Positions 2,432 to 44,778 of a stretch of 44,778 bases of DNA are shown one piece after another. The stretch lies in NCBI GenBank assembly GCA_003252455.1, contig QKED01000116.1, positions 1 through 44,778 of the forward strand, read 5' to 3'. The translations under genes were made by a program, and so were the position numbers. Numbering within the stretch: position 1 is the first letter of the stretch; each line of letters opens with the position of its first letter. The DNA is from Gammaproteobacteria bacterium. GTDB lineage: Bacteria > Pseudomonadota > Gammaproteobacteria > Thiohalomonadales > Thiohalomonadaceae. The notes beneath the pieces were generated by a model. It saw only the letters and a list, made by a program, of their open reading frames with translations, was not told the DNA's origin and did not search any database.

Positions 2432-2460
2432 TTGTAATAGTCTGTAACCCGTGATAGGAT
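2432..2460 (+). promoter_or_regulatory. Sigma-70 promoter of the tRNA cluster
   Basis: TTGTAA (2432-2437), a 17-bp spacer and TAGGAT (2455-2460) preceded by TGA (an extended -10). The GC-rich discriminator CGCGCAC follows and the first tRNA begins 17 bases downstream. A GC-rich discriminator is the usual mark of stringent, ppGpp-sensitive stable-RNA promoters. Confidence 0.7.
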
Positions 2461-2477
2461 CGCGCACCTTTAAATCA

Positions 2478-2553
2478 GCTGGCGTAGCTCAGTAGGTAGA
2501 GCTGCTGATTTGTAATCAGTAGGTCGGGGGTTCGATTCCTCTCGTCAGCTCCA
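2478..2553 (+). tRNA. tRNA-Thr (UGU)
   Basis: A 76-nt cloverleaf with encoded CCA. The acceptor strand GCTGGCG pairs with CGTCAGC, the anticodon loop is TTTGTAA (anticodon TGT), and the T-arm is GGGGGTTCGATTCCTC. It is the first gene of the cluster, in the same relative position as thrU of E. coli. Confidence 0.95.
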
Positions 2554-2622
2554 AGCGGCATAGAGAGTTAGAAAATTAAGTTGACAAAGAGGTGCAGACC
2601 AACTAAACTGCAGCTCTTTTCC

Positions 2623-2707
2623 GGAGGGGTTCCCGAGTGGCCAAAGGGATCAGACTGTAAATCTGCTGGCTCTGCCTTCGGAGGTTCGAATCCTCCCCCC
2701 TCCACCA
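2623..2707 (+). tRNA. tRNA-Tyr (GUA)
   Basis: An 85-nt class II tRNA with a long variable arm and encoded CCA. The acceptor GGAGGGG pairs with CCCCTCC, and the anticodon stem-loop is CAGACTGTAAATCTG (anticodon GTA). The order Thr-Tyr-Gly-Thr is the conserved gammaproteobacterial cluster. Confidence 0.95.
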
Positions 2708-2752
2708 AATTAGAAGCATGTATTGGCAGCCATAGGCGCCGAGTTGAGGTTC

Positions 2753-2826
<74 letters not shown>

Positions 2827-2843
2827 AAACAGACAGATTCCAC

Positions 2844-2918
<75 letters not shown>

Positions 2919-2972
2919 TTTTCCCCTGTGCATCTCTGCTGTCAAGTGCAGATTTGTATCACCCAGCGATAG

Positions 2973-3020
2973 CCACACGTCTCCTGCCGAGTCACGAAGT
3001 GTAGGGTCGAGTACGTGTGG
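2973..3020 (+). repeat. Inverted repeat in the spacer where tufB is expected
   Basis: CCACACGT (2973-2980) is repeated in inverse as ACGTGTGG (3013-3020), and the stem can extend by CTC/GAG across a one-base bulge. It would form a large hairpin in the precursor RNA between tRNA-Thr and tRNA-Trp. No T-run follows, so it is not a classical terminator; a processing site is possible. Confidence 0.5.
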
Positions 3021-3037
3021 AGCGTGGGTGAGATTTT

Positions 3038-3113
<76 letters not shown>

Positions 3114-3155
3114 TCTTTCGTGACGCGCCGGTAACGGCTAAGGTTGTTGTCATCC

Positions 3156-3503
3156 ATGGCAGATAAAATCAAGCTTTCCCTGGCGTTGATCATCGTAATC
3201 AGTGCCATGGTTGCGTTTTACTCATTTCCGGACCAGTCACTTCTGTTGCGTGTAATCGGCCTGCTTGCTGCTGCGTCGGTTGCCAGTGCTGTGGCTCTGC
3301 AGACCGCACTTGGCCAGAACACCTGGGGTTTTGGTCGCGGTGCAGTGATCGAGGTGCGTAAGGTCGTTTGGCCGACCGGGAAGGAGACCCGTCAGACCAC
3401 CCTCGTCGTCATGGCGATGGTATTGGTGATGGGGCTTATCCTCTGGGTCTTCGACCTGTTCCTTGGCTGGGCCGTCAATTTTCTGACTGGTCTCGGGGGC
3501 TAA
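3156..3503 (+). CDS. secE: Preprotein translocase subunit SecE
   Basis: Essential small subunit of the SecYEG channel that clamps the two halves of SecY. The 115-aa protein has the three-helix form: hydrophobic segments near residues 6-24, 29-49 and 85-110, with the conserved amphipathic stretch EVRKVVWPTGKETRQ before the last helix. ATG at 3156 is preferred over in-frame TTG codons upstream because MADKIKLS begins the conserved protein. Three bases separate it from nusG, with which it forms the usual operon. Confidence 0.95.
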   Translation: MADKIKLSLALIIVISAMVAFYSFPDQSLLLRVIGLLAAASVASAVALQTALGQNTWGFGRGAVIEVRKVVWPTGKETRQTTLVVMAMVLVMGLILWVFDLFLGWAVNFLTGLGG

Positions 3504-3506
3504 GGG

Positions 3507-4040
3507 ATGTCCAAACGTTGGTATGTGGTGCACGCGTTCTCTGGCTATGAGAACCAAGTGAAGCGCTCCCTTGAGGAGCGTATCGCGCGTTATGGCATGG
3601 AAGAGTACTTCGGCCAGGTGCTGGTTCCCACCGAAGAGGTGGTGGAGATGCGCGAAGGCCAGAAGCGTAAGAGCGAGCGTAAGTTCTTCCCCGGTTATGT
3701 GCTGGTCGAGATGGAGCTGAACGACGAGTCGTGGCACTTGGTCAAAGATGTTCCGCGTGTCATGGGGTTTATTGGTGGCACCAGTGACCGTCCCGCGCCA
3801 ATCAGTGAGCGCGAGGCACAGGCTATCATCGACCGCGTTCAGGATGGTGCAGAGAAGCCGCGTCCGAAGATTCTCTTTGAGCCCGGTGAGGTGGTGCGTA
3901 TCATCGATGGCCCGTTCAACGACTTCAATGGCGTCGTCGAACACGTCGATTACGAAAAGAATCGCCTGCGTGTTGCGGTGCTGATCTTCGGTCGCTCTAC
4001 TCCGGTGGATCTCGAATTCGGCCAAGTAGAAAAAGGTTGA
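3507..4040 (+). CDS. nusG: Transcription elongation and antitermination factor NusG
   Basis: Binds the RNA polymerase clamp, raises processivity and links polymerase to Rho or to ribosomal protein S10. The 177 residues contain the NGN domain from [13 protein letters not shown] to about residue 115, and a C-terminal KOW domain with [16 protein letters not shown]. The length is close to E. coli NusG (181). It follows secE by three bases; a long hairpin after the stop suggests that the secE-nusG message ends or is attenuated there. Confidence 0.97.
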
Positions 4041-4050
4041 TCGTTATGAG

Positions 4051-4090
4051 AAGACGCTAGGGGCCGATAGGCCCTTAGCGTCTTTCTATT
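4051..4090 (+). terminator. Hairpin terminator or attenuator after nusG
   Basis: A 15-bp stem (one G-T pair) runs from AAGACGCTAGGGGCC (4051-4065) to GGCCCTTAGCGTCTT (4070-4084) with a GATA loop. The U-tract that follows is interrupted (TCTATTG), so termination is probably partial, leaving read-through into rplK. Confidence 0.65.
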
Positions 4091-4103
4091 GTGTGTCGTA
4101 AAT

Positions 4104-4128
4104 GGGGAGCCGCAAGGCGCTCGAACCC
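4104..4128 (+). promoter_or_regulatory. Candidate L1 autoregulatory site in the rplK leader
   Basis: GGG (4104-4106) can pair with CCC (4126-4128), and GCC (4109-4111) with GGC (4116-4118) across a GCAA tetraloop, leaving an asymmetric internal loop. L1 is known to repress rplK-rplA by binding a leader hairpin with an asymmetric loop that mimics its 23S site. The position just before the AGGAG ribosome-binding site fits; the detailed match to the L1 consensus is not verified. Confidence 0.35.
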
Positions 4129-4142
4129 ACAGGAGTCAAATA

Positions 4143-4577
4143 ATGGCTAAAAAAATTGCGGCCTATATCAAGCTGCAGGTGAAGGCAGGTCAGGCCAATC
4201 CCAGTCCGCCGGTTGGTCCTGCACTCGGTCAGCGTGGCGTCAATATCATGGAGTTCTGTAAGGCGTTTAACGCCCAGACCCAGAGTCTTGAGCCGGGTCT
4301 GCCGATCCCAGTGGTGATTACTGTCTACAGCGACAAGAGCTTCACCTTCATCACCAAGACCCCGCCCGCGTCTATCCTGCTGAAGAAAGCTGCAGGTGTT
4401 AAGTCTGGTAGCGCCGTACCGAACCGCGACAAGGTTGGTAAGGTCACCCGTGCACAGCTCGAAGAGATCGCCAATACCAAGATGCCCGACCTGACTGCGT
4501 CCGATCTGGATGCCGCAGTGCGCACCATCGCTGGTAGTGCCCGTAGTATGGGTCTTGAGGTGGAGGGAGTTGAGTAA
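4143..4577 (+). CDS. rplK: 50S ribosomal protein L11
   Basis: Part of the GTPase-associated centre of the 50S subunit, binding 23S rRNA at the L7/L12 stalk base. It has 144 residues (E. coli 142), with the thiostrepton-region motif [20 protein letters not shown] and the C-terminal rRNA-binding domain. ATG at 4143 follows AGGAGTC; the frame is open upstream but that part is not conserved. Its stop overlaps the rplA start by one base (TAATG), so the two are co-translated. Confidence 0.98.
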
Positions 4578-5269
4578 TGGCTAAGCTGAGCAAACGCGCC
4601 AAGGCGATCGCTGAGAAGATCGAGCATGGCAAGGTCTATGCGATCGACGAGGCCCTGAACCTCCTCAAGGATCTGCCCCGTGCCAAGTTCCTGGAGTCTG
4701 TTGACGTGAGCGTCAACCTCGGTGTTGACCCCCGTAAGTCCGATCAGGTCGTGCGTGGTTCCACTGTGCTTCCCAATGGTACCGGCAAGAGTGTTCGCGT
4801 CGCCGTGTTCACTCAGGGCGCCAACGCCGAAGCCGCCAAAGAGGCCGGTGCCGACATCGTTGGTATGGACGATCTGGCTGCGGAAGTAAAGGCTGGCAAC
4901 ATGAACTTCGATGTGGTCATCGCCAGCCCAGACGCCATGCGCGTAGTGGGCCAGTTGGGCCAGATCCTCGGCCCACGTGGCCTGATGCCCAACCCTAAAG
5001 TCGGCACCGTAACCCCTGATGTCGTCACCGCTGTACGCAACGCTAAGGCTGGCCAGGTGCGCTACCGCACCGACCGCGCTGGCATCATCCACTGCGCCAT
5101 CGGTAACGTCGACTTCAACTCAAGCGCCCTGGAGGAGAACCTCCGCGCCCTGCTGGCTGACCTGAACAAGCTTAAGCCGTCCAGCGCCAAGGGTGTCTAT
5201 GTGCGCAAGATCACCGTTTCTACCACCATGGGTGGCGGTGTTCCCGTTCTGACCACCTCCCTGCTCTAA
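4577..5269 (+). CDS. rplA: 50S ribosomal protein L1
   Basis: Binds the L1 stalk of 23S rRNA near the E site and in enterobacteria also represses its own operon. It has 230 residues (E. coli 234), with the two-domain signature around [26 protein letters not shown] and the C-terminal [12 protein letters not shown] overlaps the rplK stop by one base. A long untranslated leader separates it from rplJ. Confidence 0.98.
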
Positions 5270-5510
5270 AAGCTGGGGAGGGTGCCGGGAAGCCCCGGCA
5301 CAAGGTGACGGCCACCCCTCGGGGTGACGTCGAAGACCGTGGGTGAGCGATGTGCTCTCAATTCCCTCCGGGGGCCCACGCAGACGGTGTCGTCCCAACA
5401 GCCATGTCTGGAGGGCCACCGTTAAGGTGGAGCGGCTTTCGAGCCGCTCTGGTACGCAGAGTCGGTGCGTGTTGAGCGCATCGCGATACCTACCTCAAGA
5501 GGTGATTTCA
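5270..5510 (+). promoter_or_regulatory. Structured rplJ leader (candidate L10-L12 control region)
   Basis: These 241 untranslated bases hold several stable hairpins: GTGCCGGG/CCCGGCAC (5282-5301), CACCC/GGGTG with a CTCG loop (5313-5326), and GAGCGGCT/AGCCGCTC with a TTCG tetraloop (5430-5449). In E. coli the complex of L10 with L12 binds the rplJ leader and represses rplJL translation; a similar role is inferred from position. The rplJ frame stays open through part of this stretch, but that part shows no conserved protein. Confidence 0.6.
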
Positions 5511-6038
5511 ATGGCTCTTAATATCGATCAGAAGAAGGCCATTGTCGAAGAAGTCGCTCAGGTGGCTGGTACTGCCTACTCCGCCGTTGCAGCAGAGTAC
5601 CTCGGCATCTCCGCCGGTAAGATGACTGCCCTGCGTGCCGCTGCACGCAAGGAGAATGTCTACCTGCGTGTGATCAAGAACACCCTGGCTCGCCGCGCAT
5701 TCGAAGGCACTGACTTCGAGTGCATGGGCGACCAGTTGGTGGGGCCGCTGGTGCTCGCATTCTCTATCGAGGATCCGGGCGCTGCTGCACGCGTGATCAA
5801 AGATTTCGCTAAGACCGAAGACAAGCTGGTCGTGAAGATGGTCTCCATCGGCGGGAAGGTATTCCCGGCGAGCGACATCGAGCGCCTGGCCAAGATGCCG
5901 ACGAAGGAACAGGCGATCAGCCTGCTCATGGCCGTCATGAAGGCACCTGTCGAGAAGTTCGTGCGTACTCTGGCAGCACCTCACACCAAGCTGGTACGTA
6001 CCATCGCCGCGGTTCGCGACGCCAAAGAGGCGGCCTGA
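5511..6038 (+). CDS. rplJ: 50S ribosomal protein L10
   Basis: Forms the base of the ribosomal stalk, anchoring L7/L12 dimers through its C-terminal helix and binding 23S rRNA beside L11. It has 175 residues. The start MALNIDQKKAIVEEV is the conserved N-terminus and follows an AAGAGGTG ribosome-binding site; GTG and ATG codons further upstream lie in the structured leader and are rejected. rplL follows after 84 bases that contain a small hairpin. Confidence 0.97.
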   Translation: MALNIDQKKAIVEEVAQVAGTAYSAVAAEYLGISAGKMTALRAAARKENVYLRVIKNTLARRAFEGTDFECMGDQLVGPLVLAFSIEDPGAAARVIKDFAKTEDKLVVKMVSIGGKVFPASDIERLAKMPTKEQAISLLMAVMKAPVEKFVRTLAAPHTKLVRTIAAVRDAKEAA

Positions 6039-6043
6039 GACCG

Positions 6044-6058
6044 CGGGCCGCTGGCCCG
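6044..6058 (+). repeat. Hairpin between rplJ and rplL
   Basis: CGGGCC (6044-6049) and GGCCCG (6053-6058) form a 6-bp stem with loop GCT just after the rplJ stop. There is no T-run. It may stabilise or help process the message so that L7/L12 is made in excess over L10, as the stalk needs; this is inference. Confidence 0.45.
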
Positions 6059-6122
6059 TATCTGTGTGACGAATTCAGACAATTAACCCTAAATCCCAAA
6101 TTCCAATCTGGAGCTTATTACC

Positions 6123-6497
6123 ATGGCTGTTACCAAAGAAGATATCCTCGACGCAATCTCCAACATGACCGTGATGGAAGTCGTTGAGCTGATCGAGGCA
6201 ATGGAAGAGAAGTTCGGCGTGACCGCTGCTGTCGCCGTTGCCGCTGCCGCTGCACCTGCCGCTGCTGCAGAAGCTGCCGAAGAGAAGACCGAGTTCGACG
6301 TCGTCATGACCAGCTTCGGTGAGAACAAGGTCGGCGTCATCAAGGCCGTCCGCGCTATCACCGGTCTGGGCCTGAAGGAAGCCAAGGACATGGTCGAGGG
6401 CGTGCCCTCCACCGTGAAGGAAGCCGCCTCTAAGGATGAAGCCGAGAAGATCAAGAAGGATCTGGAAGAGGCTGGCGCCAAGGTCGAGCTCAAGTAA
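6123..6497 (+). CDS. rplL: 50S ribosomal protein L7/L12
   Basis: Multi-copy stalk protein that recruits and activates translational GTPases. It has 124 residues: an N-terminal dimerisation helix pair (to about residue 35), the Ala-rich flexible hinge (about 37-57) and the factor-binding C-terminal domain with [19 protein letters not shown]. Slightly longer than E. coli (121) because of the hinge. The A/V-rich hinge produces a long spurious open frame on the other strand. Confidence 0.98.
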
Positions 6498-6519
6498 GCA
6501 GTGCCTCGCGTGGCCGAGT

Positions 6520-6559
6520 GTCGGGGTTCGCGCCCCGACCCGGTCCCGGGAAGGGACCG
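6520..6559 (+). promoter_or_regulatory. Two tandem hairpins in the rplL-rpoB spacer
   Basis: GTCGGGG/CCCCGAC (6520-6539) and CGGTCCC/GGGACCG (6541-6559) stand back to back and have no T-runs. In E. coli this spacer carries an RNase III processing site between the stalk genes and rpoB; the paired hairpins are a plausible equivalent. Confidence 0.5.
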
Positions 6560-6589
6560 CAAAGCATACTAGGGATAGTAAGCGAATCC

Positions 6590-6618
6590 GGCTGGTGGCT
6601 GACGCCACCGGCCTTTTT
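6590..6618 (+). terminator. Attenuator upstream of rpoB
   Basis: GGCTGGTGGC (6590-6599) pairs with GCCACCGGCC (6604-6613) across TGAC, ten pairs with one G-T, followed by five T. It has the form of an intrinsic terminator lying 100 bp before rpoB. The E. coli rplL-rpoB attenuator, which lets roughly a fifth of transcripts through, has the same place, so partial termination is the likely role. Confidence 0.8.
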
Positions 6619-6718
6619 ACGCTGTATCGGCGAGAATTCCACCCGCGAGGGGCGAGTGCCCAGTCACCCTACGGCACGCCCTTCGGGGTCATAGTGACAG
6701 ACCAGCTGAGGAACAGAG

Positions 6719-10861
<4,143 letters not shown>

Positions 10862-10923: not shown

Positions 10924-15144
<4,221 letters not shown>

Positions 15145-37065: not shown

Positions 37066-37139
37066 CGCCGCGTCCCACACCTCGCGCAAAGTGCCGCGCC
37101 GCCAGCCTACCGCCGGACGTGGCCCATCGGAACGCCCCC

Positions 37140-38513
37140 ATGAACGACCCTCAGATGACCCCGGCGGAGCGTCGCGCCGCCCTCTCTCTCGCCGCCATCT
37201 TCGCCCTGCGCATGCTCGGGCTGTTCATGATCCTGCCGGTCTTCGCCCTCTACGCCGAAGAGCTGCCAGGGGTCACACCGACCCTGGTCGGCCTCGCCAT
37301 CGGCATCTATGGCCTTACCCAGGCGGCGCTGCAGATCCCGTTCGGCATGCTCTCCGACCGTATCGGGCGTAAGCCGGTGATCATCGGTGGTCTGCTGGTG
37401 TTCGCCTGCGGCAGTGTGGTGGCCGCCACGGCGGGGGATATCCACCTGATCATCCTCGGTCGTGCCATTCAAGGCGCCGGGGCCATCGCCGCCGCCATCA
37501 TGGCCCTCGCCGCCGACCTCACCCGCGAGGAGCACCGCGTCAAGGCGATGGGGCTCATCGGCGTCAGTATCGGCATGGCCTTTCTCGCCGCCATGGTGCT
37601 CGGCCCGATCCTCGGTGGTCTCATCGGTGTGCCGGGCATCTTTTGGTTCACCGCCGTGCTCGCGTTGATCGGTATCGGCGTGGTCGCCCTAGTGGTGCCC
37701 GACCCAGCCCACAGCAGCGTGCACCGCGACGCCGAGGCGGTCCCCGCACTGTTCAAAGACGTGTTGCGTGACCCGCAGCTGCTGCGTCTCGACTTCGGCA
37801 TCCTGGTGCTGCACATGAGTCTCACCGCCGCCTTCGTCGCCATGCCCACCGCCCTACGCGACGCGGGGCTCGATGTCGGTCACCACTGGCTGGTGTACCT
37901 GCCGGTGATGGTGTTGGCGATGGGCGCCATGGTCCCCTTCATCATCATCGCCGAGAAGCGACGCAGGCTGAAGCCGGTGGTCATCGGTGCCATCGCCCTG
38001 CTCGGGCTCACCCAGCTGGCGCTTGCCCTCTGGCACCAGTATCTGTGGGTCATCGCCGTGTTGCTGTTTCTCTACTTCACCGCGTTCAACCTGCTGGAGG
38101 CGTCGCTCCCCTCGTTGGTGGCGAAGTTCGCCCCCACCCAGGCCAAGGGCACGGCCATGGGGGTCTACTCCAGTTCCCAGTTCATCGGCGCCTTCATCGG
38201 CGGGGTGATCGGTGGCTGGGCCTTCGGCACCTACCACTACGCCGGACTCTACACCCTCACCGGGCTGCTCATCCTGCTCTGGCTCGCCGCTGCGGTGAGC
38301 ATGGCCAGGCCGCAACACCTCGCCACCCACATGCTGCTCGTCGGCGAGCTGAGCGAGGCCGAGCGCGACGCCATCACCGCCCGCCTGCTCGGTATGGAGG
38401 GCGTGGCCGAGGCGGCCATCAATCCCGAGGACGGCATCGCCTACCTGCGCGTCGACAGTCGCACTGTCGACTATGCCGCCCTCGACGCCCTGGCCCTGCC
38501 GGAACCCACCTAG
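37140..38513 (+). CDS. MFS transporter, YajR-like with C-terminal ferredoxin-like domain
   Basis: A 457-residue inner-membrane permease of the major facilitator superfamily, twelve predicted helices, with motif A GMLSDRIGRKPVI after helix 2 and the start RRAALSLAAIFALRMLG. After helix 12 (ends near residue 390) comes a soluble domain (LVGELSEAERDAITARLL to the end) that looks like the YAM domain of E. coli YajR (454 aa). The substrate is unknown. ATG 37140 is preferred; a GTG at 37119 adds seven unconserved residues. It sits between uvrA and ssb as in pseudomonads. Confidence 0.85.
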   Translation: MNDPQMTPAERRAALSLAAIFALRMLGLFMILPVFALYAEELPGVTPTLVGLAIGIYGLTQAALQIPFGMLSDRIGRKPVIIGGLLVFACGSVVAATAGDIHLIILGRAIQGAGAIAAAIMALAADLTREEHRVKAMGLIGVSIGMAFLAAMVLGPILGGLIGVPGIFWFTAVLALIGIGVVALVVPDPAHSSVHRDAEAVPALFKDVLRDPQLLRLDFGILVLHMSLTAAFVAMPTALRDAGLDVGHHWLVYLPVMVLAMGAMVPFIIIAEKRRRLKPVVIGAIALLGLTQLALALWHQYLWVIAVLLFLYFTAFNLLEASLPSLVAKFAPTQAKGTAMGVYSSSQFIGAFIGGVIGGWAFGTYHYAGLYTLTGLLILLWLAAAVSMARPQHLATHMLLVGELSEAERDAITARLLGMEGVAEAAINPEDGIAYLRVDSRTVDYAALDALALPEPT

Positions 38514-38624: not shown

Positions 38625-39110
<486 letters not shown>

Positions 39111-39130
39111 GCCGACACGGCGACGCGCAA

Positions 39131-39164
39131 ACAAGGGCGACCCTCGGGTCGCCCTTGTGCGTTT
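39131..39164 (+). terminator. Hairpin terminator after ssb
   Basis: ACAAGGGCGACC (39131-39142) pairs perfectly with GGTCGCCCTTGT (39147-39158) around CTCG, 12 bp. The following tract GCGTTTATG is T-poor, so it is a moderate terminator; it lies 20 bp after the ssb stop. Confidence 0.7.
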
Positions 39165-39581
39165 ATGAGCCTTGTCGCGGTACACGCAGGTGATGCGGCT
39201 GCAGATCCCCGGCCTCGACACGAGCCGTGCCCTGAGCGCAAGCGGCACCATCGGCGCAGTGACGAGAGGCACGAACAGATTCCAGCCTTGTGCGCGAGGT
39301 GCTGGTGGCGTCGCTGGTCGGGCACGGAGGCGCTGAGCGGCGCCCGGTTCGGTGCGCCATGGCACCATTCCGGCGGCCTGGGCCGAGGGCTTGCTCGGTT
39401 GGGGTGTGCCCATGGGGGCGCCCGATGCGGGTTTGTCGGACGGGGAGGGCGGATTCTCCACTCCGTGATCTACGTCCATGATCCGGCTAGGGGCTCTGGG
39501 GTGTGTGGAGTATGATCCCGGTGCCGTTTTGGCTCAGGGAGTCGGCGCTGTGAGCGCCGCCAGGCGTACCGGGAGTGCCCT
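39165..39581. other. Intergenic stretch without a recognisable gene
   Basis: About 417 bp between the ssb terminator and the transporter operon. A minus-strand frame runs through it, but its translation is low-complexity Pro/Ala/Arg and does not resemble a known family. A TATGAT box at 39511-39516 could be the -10 of the downstream operon, though no -35 is convincing. A short inverted repeat GGCGCT/AGCGCC occurs at 39545-39560. Confidence 0.5.
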
Positions 39582-42152
39582 ATGCAGTCTGTGTTGTCGC
39601 GTGTGAACCGCTTTTTCGAGCTGGCGCCGGGGGTGCTGCTGCCGTTGCGCTGGCCGGTGTTGCTGCTCTTTTTCGCCCTCACCGGGGTGATGCTCTATGG
39701 CATGTTGAGCCAGTTCAGCCTGGATATGTCGCTGGAGTCCTGGTTCGAGGAGGGGGCACCGGCCAAGCGCAACTTGGATCGCTTCCGCGCCCAGTTCGGT
39801 AGTGACGACGGGGTCTATCTGGTCTACGCGCCGAAGGATGGCGACGTCTTCTCGGCGGATTCGCTCCAGCGCCTCGCCGCGTTACACGAGGCGCTGGAGT
39901 CAATCAGACTGGGCCTCGCCGGGGCCGAGTATCAGCAGAGCCCGCTACGGCGTATCGAGCGCATCGACAGCCTCTACAACGCCCGCTACCTCATTGCCGA
40001 GGGTGACACCCTCATCTCACGCAAGCTGATCGCCGGGGCCATGCCGCAGGCTGCGCCGGAGCGCGAGGCGCGTCGCGCCATCGCCAAGGGCCAAGAGACC
40101 TTCGAGCTGGCCTACTACTCGCGCGACTTCCGCTACGGCGGCATACGCCTGAAGACCGACTTCGGCATGGTCCCCGCAGGTGGTGTGCAGGAGGCCGATA
40201 CCGCCGCCGCCCCCGACCTGCTCGCCGGTGACGACCTCCTGCTCGGCAGCGACCCGTTGCAGGTGACGCAGGGTGCCGAGGTGAGCGAGGTGCAGTACGC
40301 CAACATGCAGATGGACGAGTACCTCGACTTCATGCTCGCGCTGCGCGCAGTGACCGAGCGGCCGGAGTTCAGCGACCACTTCCACTTCTACTTCACCGGC
40401 AACGCGCCGATGATGGAGTTCGCCATGCACACCATGGCCCAGGCCAGTGGTCTGCTCGGGCTGATGGTGCTCATCGTCGTCGGCCTGCTCTGGCTGCTGT
40501 TCCACTCCCTCAGCGCGGTGATCTGGCCGCTGACACTGATCCTCGGTTCGGCCATCTGGGCCATCGGTGCGGCGAGCTGGCTCGGCGTCACCTTCTCCAA
40601 CATGGTCTCGCTCACCTTCATGCTGATCCTCGCCGTGGGCATCGCCGACTGCGTGCATGTGTTGAGCGGCTACAACCACTTCCGCCGCGAGGGCCACGAC
40701 CACCGCCGCGCCATGGCCCTCGCGTATCGCAAGACTGGTCTGCCGATCCTGCTCACCACAGTCACTACGATGGCCGGTATGTTCGCCCTCACCGTCAGCG
40801 ACATCCCGCAGATCGGTGTCTTCGGTGTCACCTCCGCACTGGGCGTACTGGGCGCCTTCGTCCTCACCCTCTTCGTACTGCCGGTGATGCTCGACATCTG
40901 GCACCCCTACCGCGAGCGCAACCGGGAGAAGCCGCGCCACTACTGGCTGCAGCCGCTGCTCGACCCCATCCCCGAGCTGGTGGGGCGTGCGCCGCGCACC
41001 ATCGTTGTCGTCTACCTCCTGCTCTTCGGCTTGTTGTTGGCGGGGCTGACGCAGATCCGCGTCGACTCCAACTTCGTCGAGCTGACCCGCGAGGGGAGTG
41101 ATATGCGCACCACCTACGCCCTGGTCGACAAGGTGATGATGGGTGGGCAGAACATGGAGCTGATGATCGACCTGGGTCGGCCCGACGCCTTCAAGGACCC
41201 GCGCGTGCTCGCCACCCTGGCGGCGCTCCAGGCCCATGTCGAGGCGCGCTACCCGGCGTACGTGGCCAAGAGCTTCTCCCTGGCCGACTATGTGGCCGAC
41301 ACCAATCAGGTGATGCACCAGGACAACCCCGACTACCGTCGCATACCGGATGATGCGCGTCTCACCGCCCAACTCCTCTACCTGTTCGACAACGCCAATC
41401 CCGAAGACCGGCGCCAACTGGTGAGCGACGACTACAGCCGTAGCCATATCAGCCTGCAGATGCGCAACGCCGGCTCCTACGAGTACACACGGATCTTTAC
41501 CGAGGTGGAGGCCGAGATGGATCGCCGCTTCGCCCCGCTGCGCGCCGACTACCCGGAGATGCAGTTGCAGCCCACCGGCTCCCTGGCACTGATGATGGAG
41601 CTGCTCGACCACATCAGTTGGACCCAGGTGAAGAGCTTCAGCCTCGCCCTGCTGACCATCACCATCCTCCTCGTGCTGAGCCTCGGCAGCGTGCAGGCCG
41701 GACTCATCTCCATGGTGCCCAACCTGCTCCCCGCCTTCTTCAGCTTCGGCCTGATGGGGCTGCTCGGCGTGCCGCTCGACACCGACACCCTGGTCATCGC
41801 CCCGCTGATCATCGGCATCGCGGTGGACGACACCATCCACTTCGTCGCCCACTACCGGGATGCCTGGTACGAACATGGCGACATCGGGCGGGCCCTGCAC
41901 GCCACCATCCACGAGGTGGGTCAGGCGGTCACCTACACCAGCCTGATCCTCGGCGTCGGCTTCACCGTGCTGATCTTCTCCGACTACCTCGGCCTGGCCA
42001 AGACCGGCATCTTCGGCTCCGCCGCCATCTTCGTCGCCCTCTCGTCGGACCTGCTGCTGCTACCCGCGCTGATCGAGTGGCTCAAGCCGGACCTGGGGCG
42101 CAAGCGCTATCTACAACGCCTGGGCAAGGCCGCTCCCGCCGTGAAGGCGTAA
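39582..42152 (+). CDS. RND/MMPL-family transporter
   Basis: An 856-residue inner-membrane protein with duplicated RND layout: helix 1 (about residues 20-43), a large periplasmic loop, a block of five helices (286-443), helix 7 (470-493), a second periplasmic loop and a final five-helix block (685-836). The likely proton-relay acidic residues stand in the fourth helix of each half: GIADCVH (about 351-357) and GIAVDDTIHF (about 744-753). Sterol-sensing-domain-like cores and lack of a TolC/adaptor gene nearby place it with the MMPL/HpnN-type lipid exporters rather than drug-pump RNDs. It leads a tight operon with a LolA-like protein and an outer-membrane barrel. The substrate is unknown. Confidence 0.88.
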   Translation: MQSVLSRVNRFFELAPGVLLPLRWPVLLLFFALTGVMLYGMLSQFSLDMSLESWFEEGAPAKRNLDRFRAQFGSDDGVYLVYAPKDGDVFSADSLQRLAALHEALESIRLGLAGAEYQQSPLRRIERIDSLYNARYLIAEGDTLISRKLIAGAMPQAAPEREARRAIAKGQETFELAYYSRDFRYGGIRLKTDFGMVPAGGVQEADTAAAPDLLAGDDLLLGSDPLQVTQGAEVSEVQYANMQMDEYLDFMLALRAVTERPEFSDHFHFYFTGNAPMMEFAMHTMAQASGLLGLMVLIVVGLLWLLFHSLSAVIWPLTLILGSAIWAIGAASWLGVTFSNMVSLTFMLILAVGIADCVHVLSGYNHFRREGHDHRRAMALAYRKTGLPILLTTVTTMAGMFALTVSDIPQIGVFGVTSALGVLGAFVLTLFVLPVMLDIWHPYRERNREKPRHYWLQPLLDPIPELVGRAPRTIVVVYLLLFGLLLAGLTQIRVDSNFVELTREGSDMRTTYALVDKVMMGGQNMELMIDLGRPDAFKDPRVLATLAALQAHVEARYPAYVAKSFSLADYVADTNQVMHQDNPDYRRIPDDARLTAQLLYLFDNANPEDRRQLVSDDYSRSHISLQMRNAGSYEYTRIFTEVEAEMDRRFAPLRADYPEMQLQPTGSLALMMELLDHISWTQVKSFSLALLTITILLVLSLGSVQAGLISMVPNLLPAFFSFGLMGLLGVPLDTDTLVIAPLIIGIAVDDTIHFVAHYRDAWYEHGDIGRALHATIHEVGQAVTYTSLILGVGFTVLIFSDYLGLAKTGIFGSAAIFVALSSDLLLLPALIEWLKPDLGRKRYLQRLGKAAPAVKA

Positions 42153-42171
42153 CCCCTCAAGGAGAAGACGC

Positions 42172-43047
42172 ATGATGAAAGCCCACACCCTCTGGTCTCT
42201 GCTGCTGTTAATCCCCGCCCTGGCCTGTGCCAGTGAAGACGCCCGCACCATCATGGAGAAGGTCGACGCCCAGCAGCGCGCGGTGGCCGACGGCACTCTC
42301 ACCCGCTCGCAGCTGTCGAGCTGCAAATTCGGTCTCAAGGATAAGGCGGTCGCCTGCGTCGAGGAGCCGCGCGTGAAGCGTATGGAGTCGACCTCACGCC
42401 AGCTCGGCGCCGATAAGAAAGACAGCCAGAGCATCGCCATCCTGTTAGAGCCCGCCAGCGAGCGCGGCATCGGCATGCTCACCTACACCTATGCCGACGA
42501 GAGCAAGGAGACTGAGTCCTGGCTCTACCTCTCCGCCCTCGGTCGCGTCAAACGCATGGTCAGTGGTGCGGCGGAGGACCAAGAGCCGGTCTCGCTGTTC
42601 GGCTCCGAGTTCTCCACCGAGGATATGGAGAACGGCAAGACCGATGAGTACCGCTACCAGATCCTCCAGGAGGGCGACTACGACGGCACCCAGGTGTGGG
42701 TCATCGAGGGGCTGCCCAACGAGGCGCGCCTGCGCAAGAGCCGCTACAGCAAGATCTACTTCTGGATCGACAAGGCGCGTTACGTGCCGCTTAAAGTGCA
42801 GGCCTACGACAAGCGCGGCCAGCTCTTCAAGCGCATCCTGTTCCGCGACATCCAACAGCTCGACGGCCTCTGGCTCGCCCGCGACCTTACCCTGCTCAAC
42901 GTGCAGACCAGCCGCCTCTCCACTATGCGCACCGAGGCGATCGCCCTGCACGTAACCCTCGACGACGACTTCCTCACCCAGCGGACCCTTACCGACTTCG
43001 CCTACCGCGAGCGCGAGCTGGAGCGGCTGCGCGCGCAGTTCCAGTGA
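42172..43047 (+). CDS. Periplasmic outer-membrane lipoprotein-sorting (LolA-like) protein
   Basis: A 291-residue protein with an N-terminal signal peptide (MMKAHTLWSLLLLIPALACA, cleavage likely before SEDAR; the cysteine lies in a poor lipobox context). The mature part shows the half-barrel pattern of the LolA/LolB-like superfamily, with WLYLSALGRVKRM and SLFGSEFSTEDM typical of proteins annotated as outer-membrane lipoprotein-sorting, which usually sit next to RND exporters. It probably carries a hydrophobic cargo across the periplasm. ATG at 42172 and 42175 are both in frame; AAGGAG (42159-42164) precedes. The stop overlaps the next gene by four bases (GTGA). Confidence 0.8.
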   Translation: MMKAHTLWSLLLLIPALACASEDARTIMEKVDAQQRAVADGTLTRSQLSSCKFGLKDKAVACVEEPRVKRMESTSRQLGADKKDSQSIAILLEPASERGIGMLTYTYADESKETESWLYLSALGRVKRMVSGAAEDQEPVSLFGSEFSTEDMENGKTDEYRYQILQEGDYDGTQVWVIEGLPNEARLRKSRYSKIYFWIDKARYVPLKVQAYDKRGQLFKRILFRDIQQLDGLWLARDLTLLNVQTSRLSTMRTEAIALHVTLDDDFLTQRTLTDFAYRERELERLRAQFQ

Positions 43048-44285
43048 GTCGCGCCATGCCGCGTCGCGGCCTGTGGCTCTGGCCGCTCGGTGCTTGCTGT
43101 CTGGTCACACAGGTCCTCGCTGAGGATCTGCTTGGCGCAGACAGCCTCGACCTATTGGCAGAAGAGCCCCTCACCCTGGCGGCGCCCGCCGAGGCGCACG
43201 AGGCACACTGGAGCGACGGCCTCAAACTCACCTTCGAACAGAGCCAAGGGCAGAACCAAGACGCTACCTACCTCAAGCGCAGCCGCCTGCGCCTGGAGTA
43301 CGAACAGGGCTGGGGCGACGGCTGGTTCGTGCGTCTCGACGGGCGCTACACCCACTACTGGGCCGACGACCTCCAGGCCACCCTGCGCGGCGAGGCCTAC
43401 GACCACAGCGAGGTGCAGGAACTCTGGGCCCAATACAGCGCCGGGGCCTGCGCCTACAAGGTCGGCAAACAGCGCCTGGTCTGGGGTGTGGTCGACGGCA
43501 CCTTCGTGGTCGACGTCATCACCCCCCTCGACTACACCGAGCCGTTACTCACCGACTACGCCAACCTGCGCCTCGGCCAAGAGATGCTCCTCGCCGACTG
43601 CTTCGCCGGGGCCTGGCAGGGTCAGCTCTTCTACCTCCCCGAGGCGCGCCTCGACCGCGTCAGCCACAGCGGCTACGGCCTGCCCCTCGACACCGGCGCC
43701 GAATACGGCGCGCGCCTCAAAGTGAGCGACTCCCTCGGCGAACTGAGCCTCTACGCCGCCCACCTCTACGCCAACACCCCAACGCCCGTCACCACCGCCC
43801 CCGGCCTCGCCGTGGCCGAATACGACCTGCTCGGCCTCAGCACCACCCTGGTGCACGAGAGCCTCATCGGCCAGATCGACCTCGCCCTCAAGCCCGATCA
43901 GTGGTACCCGCTGAGCAACCAGCGCCGCGACCGCCTCGATGTCGCCATCGGCCTCGAATACGTCACCGCGAGCAACCACAACCTCAACGCCGGTGTGATG
44001 TGGAACCAGTGGGACAACCCACCCCCCAGCAGCGACGACAGCTCCCCCCTCTACACCCTCGGCTGGCGCCAGAGCTACCTGCACGACACCCTCGCCATGA
44101 GCCTGCTCGCCTACCGCGCCGACCAGCCACGCTTCTGGGCCGTCAACCTCCTCGCCGACTATCAGTGGGATGACCATTGGAGTGTGGCCGGTGCGTTGGG
44201 TGTGGCTGACTTTGCTACAGGAGTTACCACGCCGTTCGGAACGAATGAACGGTCGGTGAGTGTGACGGTGACGGCGACTTATTAA
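43044..44285 (+). CDS. Outer-membrane beta-barrel protein, DUF1302-like
   Basis: A 413-residue protein with a signal peptide (cleavage probably after LVTQVLA) and repeated amphipathic strands ending in an aromatic residue (SVTVTATY), the mark of an outer-membrane barrel. YKVGKQRLVWGVVDGTFVVD resembles the conserved segment of DUF1302-type barrels often found beside MMPL exporters. The GTG start overlaps the previous stop; an ATG at 43056 is an alternative. Odd: codons up to about 44160 end almost always in C, then the last 41 codons switch abruptly to T/G endings, as if the 3' end came from elsewhere. Confidence 0.75.
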   Translation: MSRAMPRRGLWLWPLGACCLVTQVLAEDLLGADSLDLLAEEPLTLAAPAEAHEAHWSDGLKLTFEQSQGQNQDATYLKRSRLRLEYEQGWGDGWFVRLDGRYTHYWADDLQATLRGEAYDHSEVQELWAQYSAGACAYKVGKQRLVWGVVDGTFVVDVITPLDYTEPLLTDYANLRLGQEMLLADCFAGAWQGQLFYLPEARLDRVSHSGYGLPLDTGAEYGARLKVSDSLGELSLYAAHLYANTPTPVTTAPGLAVAEYDLLGLSTTLVHESLIGQIDLALKPDQWYPLSNQRRDRLDVAIGLEYVTASNHNLNAGVMWNQWDNPPPSSDDSSPLYTLGWRQSYLHDTLAMSLLAYRADQPRFWAVNLLADYQWDDHWSVAGALGVADFATGVTTPFGTNERSVSVTVTATY

Positions 44286-44433
44286 GATTGCCTCGCCTTG
44301 GATGATATGAGCAAGGGCGCTTTCGCCACCAGACCACACATATATGTATAGCCGACGTCATTATTTGCAAATGCTTAACTACGCTAGTTCTATTTGAATG
44401 ATGCTATGTGGAAACTTATAGGAGGATGATGAG

Positions 44434-44700
44434 GTGGGGCAGTGGATTTATCCTTTTAAGGGAAGAAACAGATCAAGTGCCACCACACAAAACTTCCTTT
44501 GGCGTAGTGGGTCAGTTTATGTGATGGACAATCATCGTGCTGCGTTGTGGTGTTGGGTTAAAGAGTTAGAAAATCAGACTCGATATGATCTAATTCATAT
44601 AGATAGGCATCATGATTGCGCTAGTGTTGCTGGTAATCTCAGGCATCCCCTCATATTTTCAAATAATGCCAAAAATTTGCTTATAGACGGTCTGGGCTGA
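44434..44700 (+). pseudogene. UPF0489 / peptide-arginase-like protein, N-terminal fragment
   Basis: An 88-codon frame, far shorter than the family's usual length of well over 200. VYVMDNHRAALWCW (28-41) and LIHIDRHHD (53-61) match the start of UPF0489 proteins; D57-x-H59-x-D61 is the arginase-type metal motif. Some family members (OspR) convert peptide arginine to ornithine. After residue 85 the sequence stops at TGA and base composition changes, so the gene is probably cut by an insertion or rearrangement. GTG 44434 follows a perfect AGGAGG (44420-44425). AT-rich, unlike the genes to its left, which suggests transfer. Confidence 0.6.
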
Positions 44701-44778
44701 GATAAGCTCTGAGAATTTCTCCATCAGAGGCCGTAACCACTCCTCCGGCATTCTCGGGATCTTGTCGTACAGCATGCA
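44659..44778 (-). CDS. Unrecognised partial reading frame at the window edge
   Basis: On the minus strand a frame enters from the right edge and ends with TGA at 44661-44659. The 39 visible codons include YDKIPRMPEEWLRPLMEKFS, followed by ELISAQTVYKQIFGII. The first 28 or so look like real protein; the last ten lie antisense in the UPF0489 fragment and may be a chance extension. I do not recognise the family; a transposase or a neighbour truncated by the same event are both possible. An in-frame ATG lies at 44775-44773. Confidence 0.35.
   Translation of the reverse strand, partial: CMLYDKIPRMPEEWLRPLMEKFSELISAQTVYKQIFGII

Follow-up and report, generated by a model that had tools for sequence, protein, structure and literature searches.

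A candidate envelope-spanning route for hydrophobic cargo encoded by a conserved RND, LolA-like and outer-membrane barrel gene trio

Introduction

How hydrophobic compounds other than lipopolysaccharide and lipoproteins cross the periplasm of Gram-negative bacteria is known only in part. Here we describe a trio of genes for a resistance-nodulation-division (RND) transporter, a LolA-like periplasmic protein and an outer-membrane barrel, located at the end of a 44,778-nucleotide stretch of DNA (contig QKED01000116.1 of assembly GCA_003252455.1, hereafter the window) from a gammaproteobacterium of the family Thiohalomonadaceae. The set is not new: it is annotated in Prevotella, and the AmeABCD system of Castellaniella defragrans is a characterised cousin, which makes the locus a well-supported further case of a known, under-studied kind.

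The systems of C. defragrans, Pseudomonas putida and Thalassolituus oleivorans are compared with the trio by description. AmeABCD resembles the trio in that a HAE3-type RND protein, a periplasmic protein of the LolA superfamily and a DUF1302 outer-membrane protein are encoded together, and its deletion lowers monoterpene tolerance; it differs in having four genes, including one for a COG4447 periplasmic protein, and in its LolA part being DUF1329 (PMC6394551). In Pseudomonas putida, PP_0765 (DUF1302), PP_0766 (DUF1329), PP_2018 and PP_2019 also amount to a barrel, a LolA-type protein and an inner-membrane transporter, although by locus number they form two separate gene pairs and include an extra periplasmic protein. 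P. putida requires this set to grow on Tween 20, for which the authors suggest substrate transport, and AlphaFold contacts were predicted between PP_0766 and both the barrel and PP_2018/PP_2019 (PMC10866462). Prevotella nigrescens (NZ_CP082843) has genes of these three types, arranged as in the window with gaps of 11 and 1 bp, named in RefSeq as MMPL, lipoprotein-sorting and DUF1302 proteins; unlike in the window, the Bacteroidota operons are preceded by ATP-binding cassette (ABC) ATP-binding proteins, and the middle protein is 27% identical to ours. The PG1175-81 and P. intermedia operons are reported to contain TetR and to be induced by low iron (PMC10434189). As precedents, AmeABCD, the P. 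putida set and the Bacteroidota operons come close to the trio, and phenotypes have been reported for some of them.

Two further systems share the general plan. In Thalassolituus oleivorans, the MMPL and LolA-like domains are joined in one protein, TOL_3187, which is 42-fold upregulated on the n-C28 alkane and is adjoined by the predicted porin TOL_3188 (PMC6304351). The predicted BBJ23-29 system of Borrelia likewise comprises a motor, a LolA-like carrier, an outer-membrane barrel and a proposed non-polar ligand, but has a MacB-like ABC motor, an Omp85 barrel and extra tetratricopeptide repeat proteins (PMC13078400), and in this resembles an ABC-driven cassette of our own genome described below. 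Within the open-access literature, most subscription papers lying outside this scope, we found no paper on an RND/PF17131/barrel set as one characterised system.

Results and discussion

The trio recurs as a unit

The three genes are the last of the window and form a tight tandem on the plus strand; the open reading frame (ORF) map confirms the boundaries proposed by a first-pass annotation, together with the 19-bp gap and the 4-bp overlap between them (Table 1). We consider it likely, with a probability of about 0.62, that they encode one envelope-spanning transport route that carries a hydrophobic cargo outward. In such a route the LolA-like half-barrel would take the cargo into its groove and ferry it across the periplasm, and an 18-stranded barrel would accept it and place it in, or release it through, the outer membrane. 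The route would thus work like the Lol pathway, except that another motor would drive it and its exit would resemble a porin. It would also depart from AcrAB-TolC, an HAE1 system with a continuous tunnel, in having neither a membrane fusion protein nor a TolC-type channel: the partners found are a LolA_like protein and a barrel modelled with 18 strands, which rejects classical tripartite efflux.

Co-occurrence in other genomes had been set beforehand as a test of a joint system, and the trio recurs widely. A LolA_like search of 56 genomes gave matches in 28, counting our own, and the 57 loci considered are all the matching places outside our own genome. A same-strand RND gene lies within 3 kb in 33 of these loci, RND and barrel genes in 26, and an FtsX-type ABC permease gene is nearby in 10. 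Across 229 genomes of the class, PF17131 was matched in 141 and scored over its cut-off in 123. For the reciprocal survey, a profile of three RND sequences was run against named genomes; of the 572 relatives confirmed, the best 80 were taken, and their record titles include Gammaproteobacteria, Desulfobacterales, SAR324, Sulfurovum and Bacteroidota. Among these 80 RND loci, 57 have a LolA_like gene and 51 both a LolA_like and a barrel gene anywhere in the locus; RND and LolA_like genes lie on one strand within 500 bp of each other in 51, and the barrel is also within 500 bp in 45. The closest subfamily, a set of 31 loci that leaves out the interleaved but more distant L129, L130, L133 and L138 (at most 34% identity), has LolA_like genes in 28 and LolA_like plus barrel genes in 25. 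The closest named RND relative among the 80 is from a Hahella sp. metagenome-assembled genome (66% identical over the best segment). By gene content and spacing, the trio is a conserved module.

Fusions between the first two components point in the same direction. In a survey of 398 genomes, RND and LolA_like proteins are encoded by separate genes in most relatives, and in at least 7 rows the two parts are bridged only by reading through an in-frame stop. One locus (L186), however, has a single frame of 1069 aa with MMPL and LolA_like domains, adjoined by a 400-aa gene without a Pfam match whose product shares 49% identity with the barrel of a trio. A second (L189, genome G401) has a single frame of 1042 aa with the same domains, adjoined by a 413-aa gene that reaches 18.8 bits for DUF1302, under the cut-off, and is 25% identical over 195 residues to the barrel-family neighbour in L186. 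Two surveyed genomes and the published TOL_3187 therefore agree on an RND-LolA fusion; among the matches listed, one row besides G401, from genome G365, spans both parts without a stop and is a putative fusion. The loss of one stop codon suffices to produce such frames, and assembly errors are possible. A LolA-barrel fusion in genome G165 (718-aa frame) was rejected as an overlong reading frame.

The three proteins

The RND protein scores 121.1 bits against MMPL (PF03176; E-value 6.5e-35), above the cut-off of 20.5, and 223.5 bits against the HAE3 model TIGR00921, below its cut-off of 351.9, which makes it an HAE3 relative outside the family as that model draws it. HpnN and MmpL-family NCBIfam models match with significant E-values at scores far under the family cut-offs (158.8 vs. 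751.85 and 104.3 vs. 1100 bits for the HpnN equivalog models), and the solved relatives found by sequence are HpnN (6wu0 best, 5khn), followed by Patched and MmpL4. A hydropathy scan, with peaks merged by eye, gives about 12 transmembrane (TM) segments and two periplasmic loops at about residues 44–280 (~240 residues) and 493–685 (~190 residues). Both acidic relay motifs noted earlier are present, D356 in TM4 and D749/D750 in TM10. We aligned 111 RND proteins that were 740–960 aa long and reached E<1e-60 in at least one of the two surveys, leaving out shorter, longer and weaker matches; within the closest subfamily (n=27), D749 and D750 are each kept in 27 rows and D356 in 25. Over the whole alignment (Table 1), the TM4 half of the relay is not constant across the wider RND family.

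The middle protein, for which a signal peptide was called by eye, matches LolA_like (PF17131) at 1.7e-45 with 155.4 bits, above the cut-off of 30, and secondly DUF1329 at 1.3e-16. An AlphaFold2 model built with 49 sequences has a predicted local distance difference test (pLDDT) score of 91.1. Its best structural match is LolA3 of Porphyromonas gingivalis (9tp6; Z 29.9, root-mean-square deviation 1.9, 240 residues aligned), followed by the DUF1329 protein 4z48 (Z 29.5), the Vibrio protein 3bk5 (Z 28.1) and NE2245 (3buu; Z 21.3); E. coli LolA entries reach Z 10.4–12.2. The model and these crystal structures bear out the proposed LolA fold. In P. gingivalis LolA3, helices are reported to shield a hydrophobic groove (PMC13103446). 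A hydrophobic cavity in the middle protein, the other test set beforehand, is thus supported only indirectly, through its fold and this nearest solved relative; in the window protein the alternation of hydrophobic residues is suggestive in some strands only. In an alignment of 106 LolA_like proteins of 230–345 aa, Cys51 and Cys62 are both present in 26 rows overall and in 23 of the 26 subfamily rows. The pair is typical of the subfamily to which the window protein belongs, and could form a disulfide in a predicted beta-hairpin. The module being widespread and compact, and the carrier having a high-confidence model with solved relatives, this protein suits a direct study of cargo capture. In a plasmid collection, the LolA_like protein was matched in 13 of 72,556 records, all at <60% identity. 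On plasmid p1 of Pseudoalteromonas rhizosphaerae (L191), MMPL and LolA_like genes adjoin gamma-mobile-trio recombinase genes, with no barrel annotated; this is possibly a mobile copy.

The first-pass annotation called the barrel DUF1302-like, yet Pfam gives no match at E<=0.01 nor at E<=1, DUF1302 (PF06980) included. Homology is reached through its relatives: the barrel of the closest relative is 44% identical and scores 19.5 bits for DUF1302 against a cut-off of 23.2, and 33 of 41 aligned barrels match DUF1302 at E<=1. In addition, a barrel encoded elsewhere in the same genome, on contig C27, is 26% identical (E 2e-18) and is a clear DUF1302 protein (3.5e-27, over cut-off). By its similarity to this C27 protein, the window barrel is a remote DUF1302 homologue. 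Its model has 18 strands and a pLDDT of 84.5, with low confidence at residues 1–12, 20–52 and 208–211, and resembles Wzi (Z 22.8), followed at about Z 21 by Occ/OprD porins and AlgE. A sequence search of solved structures with the barrel profile gave 0 matches. One locus with the order LolA-barrel-RND (L187) encodes, at 6129-8507, a 792-aa protein that looks barrel-like by eye and has a long, repetitive N-terminal extension.

Table 1 Features of the trio in the window (positions are those of the whole stretch).
Feature	Position	Strand	Remarks
RND transporter, MMPL type	39582-42152	+	856 aa
TM4 acidic residue D356	40647-40649	+	kept in 25/27 subfamily RNDs, 59/111 overall
TM10 acidic pair D749/D750	41826-41831	+	D749 111/111, D750 102/111
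LolA_like (PF17131) protein, secreted	42172-43047	+	291 aa; 19-bp gap after RND gene
Cys51 of the Cys51/Cys62 pair	42322-42324	+	predicted beta-hairpin
Cys62 of the same pair	42355-42357	+	predicted beta-hairpin
Outer-membrane barrel	43044-44285	+	GTG start, 413 aa; 4-bp overlap with LolA_like gene
Barrel residues 141-148, GKQRLVWG	43464-43487	+	include invariant G141, W147, G148

Sister cassettes and possible cargo

The same genome carries two related cassettes. The one on contig C27 (L013, C27:22000-36000; 4385-9737) encodes TetR, an RND protein, a LolA_like protein and a true DUF1302 barrel. On contig C77 (L015, C77:32000-43000; 2447-8103), an ABC ATPase and a MacB/FtsX-type permease take the place of the RND motor, next to a LolA_like gene and a gene of the barrel family that matches Wzi weakly, below cut-off; genes for a histidine kinase and then a LytTR response regulator follow. 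A MacB/FtsX-type ABC motor is also used by Lol. If motors feed into one shared kind of shuttle, RND and ABC motors should both occur beside the same kind of carrier and barrel, as they do here. That one kind of carrier-barrel pair goes with two motor types hints more strongly than anything else that the crossing is made by the carrier rather than by a tunnel. A broader and tentative idea, which we hold to be somewhat less probable than its opposite, is that LolA_like proteins and DUF1302-type barrels could form a general, motor-independent shuttle that is plugged into either RND or MacB/LolCDE-like ABC motors and exports dedicated lipids or polyketides. Our genome would then run three such lines in parallel (contigs C16, which is the window, C27 and C77), and that of the window would belong to a distinct subfamily in which Cys51/Cys62 staple the carrier and which has a surface lipid cargo of its own.

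As to the cargo, the earlier analogy with hopanoid transport is not supported for this genome (99.72% complete), in which the hopene cyclase family PF13243 has 0 matches; the same search matched 2 of 14 named genomes as a control. Hopanoids are therefore an unlikely cargo and were rejected for this genome; the rest of the joint-system proposal is favoured by the recurrence of the trio and by the RND-LolA fusions. The best hint comes from two relatives within polyketide synthase clusters, which we take to be of the trans-acyltransferase type and whose RND and LolA_like proteins belong to the subfamily of the window. In Fulvivirga imtechensis AK7 (L121), polyketide synthase, 3-hydroxy-3-methylglutaryl (HMG)-CoA synthase and enoyl-CoA hydratase genes lie upstream of the trio and two acyltransferase genes downstream. 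In Massilia rhizosphaerae (L136), the RND frame begins 8 bp after a 2329-aa polyketide synthase frame and is followed by LolA_like, ketoacyl synthase and HMG-CoA synthase genes, with no barrel detected at the locus. In the closest relative, the Hahella metagenome-assembled genome (L106), genes for TetR and for a protein with an MlaD (MCE) domain (11941-13303) lie directly downstream of the trio. By association, the neighbours in these 3 of 31 subfamily loci, the ones covered by Pfam annotation, would point to a lipid-like cargo. Aryl-polyene clusters also contain MMPL and LolA genes. The polyketide cases suggest a possible export tool for hydrophobic natural products.

Several observations weigh against a dedicated outward route. 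Neither an RND nor an ABC permease gene is nearby, at the thresholds used, in 15 of the 57 LolA_like loci, some of these on short contigs, and 23 of the 80 RND loci, some likewise on short contigs, have no LolA_like gene. When 255 neighbouring ORFs from the 31 subfamily loci were clustered, no gene outside the trio occurred in more than 9 loci; therefore the neighbours do not reveal the cargo, and a cargo read from conserved neighbours was rejected. In the 9-locus cluster, dehydrogenase-like proteins are mixed with polyketide synthase proteins. Two clusters found in 7 loci each, called symporter-like and oxidoreductase-like by eye, look like local synteny. A more polar pocket is reported for F. 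johnsoniae LolA3 (PMC11885536), and the precedents from degraders (AmeABCD, the PP_0765 set and TOL_3187) are as compatible with expelling external hydrophobic substrates, or gaining access to them, as with export of a lipid made by the cell. A promoter consensus scan of 39050-44778 was uninformative, with 0 found. What the analysis shows is the order of the genes, the families and predicted folds of their products, the conservation of the unit and the RND-LolA fusions in relatives; it is the physical hand-over between components, the outward direction and the lipid or otherwise hydrophobic nature of the cargo that we infer.

Alternative explanations

The most serious alternative, which we regard as possible but unlikely, is that the same three parts expel toxic external hydrophobics such as solvents, terpenes or dyes, as proposed for AmeABCD, whose deletion strain has lowered monoterpene tolerance (PMC6394551). 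TetR-type regulators, found in 18 of the 57 LolA_like loci and 17 of the 80 RND loci, and present beside both the trio of the closest relative and the C27 cassette, would suit this function. On the other hand, no COG4447-type gene is among the three contiguous trio ORFs (the contig ends 493 bp past the barrel, and a copy elsewhere was not searched for), and the two relatives inside polyketide clusters suggest a dedicated endogenous cargo there.

Less probable still is an inward or retrograde route, in which the barrel would admit hydrophobic nutrients and the carrier and RND protein would pass on or recycle lipids. The requirement for the P. putida set on Tween 20, where substrate transport was suggested (PMC10866462), and the induction of TOL_3187/3188 on n-C28 (PMC6304351) are in keeping with uptake, whereas, of the RND relatives that match, MmpL3 and MmpL4 carry exporter annotations and the polyketide-cluster cases favour export. 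HpnN (a named hopanoid transporter), Patched and NPC1 also match the RND protein and do not settle the direction.

Specialised lipoprotein sorting, an RND-powered parallel to Lol for particular lipoproteins, seems very improbable. It would account for the LolA fold, for relatives annotated as 'outer membrane lipoprotein-sorting protein' and for the Lol-like ABC motor of the C77 cassette. However, P. gingivalis LolA3 is reported to lack the LolA arginine and the LolB leucine, LolB of the same species was bound very weakly (PMC13103446), and deletion of lolA3 in F. johnsoniae left gliding and amylase secretion unaffected (PMC11885536). That the three genes are unrelated and neighbours by chance is very unlikely to the point of being negligible, even though RND and LolA_like genes are sometimes found without their partners, because their order and tight spacing recur in relatives titled to several phyla and RND-LolA fusions exist, and the locus survey already contradicts it.

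Genomic surroundings

Upstream of the trio lie genes for a major facilitator superfamily protein (37119-38513) and a single-stranded DNA-binding protein (38625-39110), and no convincing gene was seen in the ~470 bp between the latter and the RND gene. A terminator scan found 0 and was uninformative. Contig C16 ends with the window at 44778, 493 bp past the barrel, and the G+C content drops from 0.64-0.67 across the trio to 0.44 in 44286-44778, a stretch that is probably a truncated or foreign insert. An ORF within it (44434-44700), just before the contig end, matches the N-terminal part of UPF0489 only (2e-7). Near the other end of the window, five clustered genes for tRNAs (Thr, Tyr, Gly, Thr, Trp) occupy 2478-3113.

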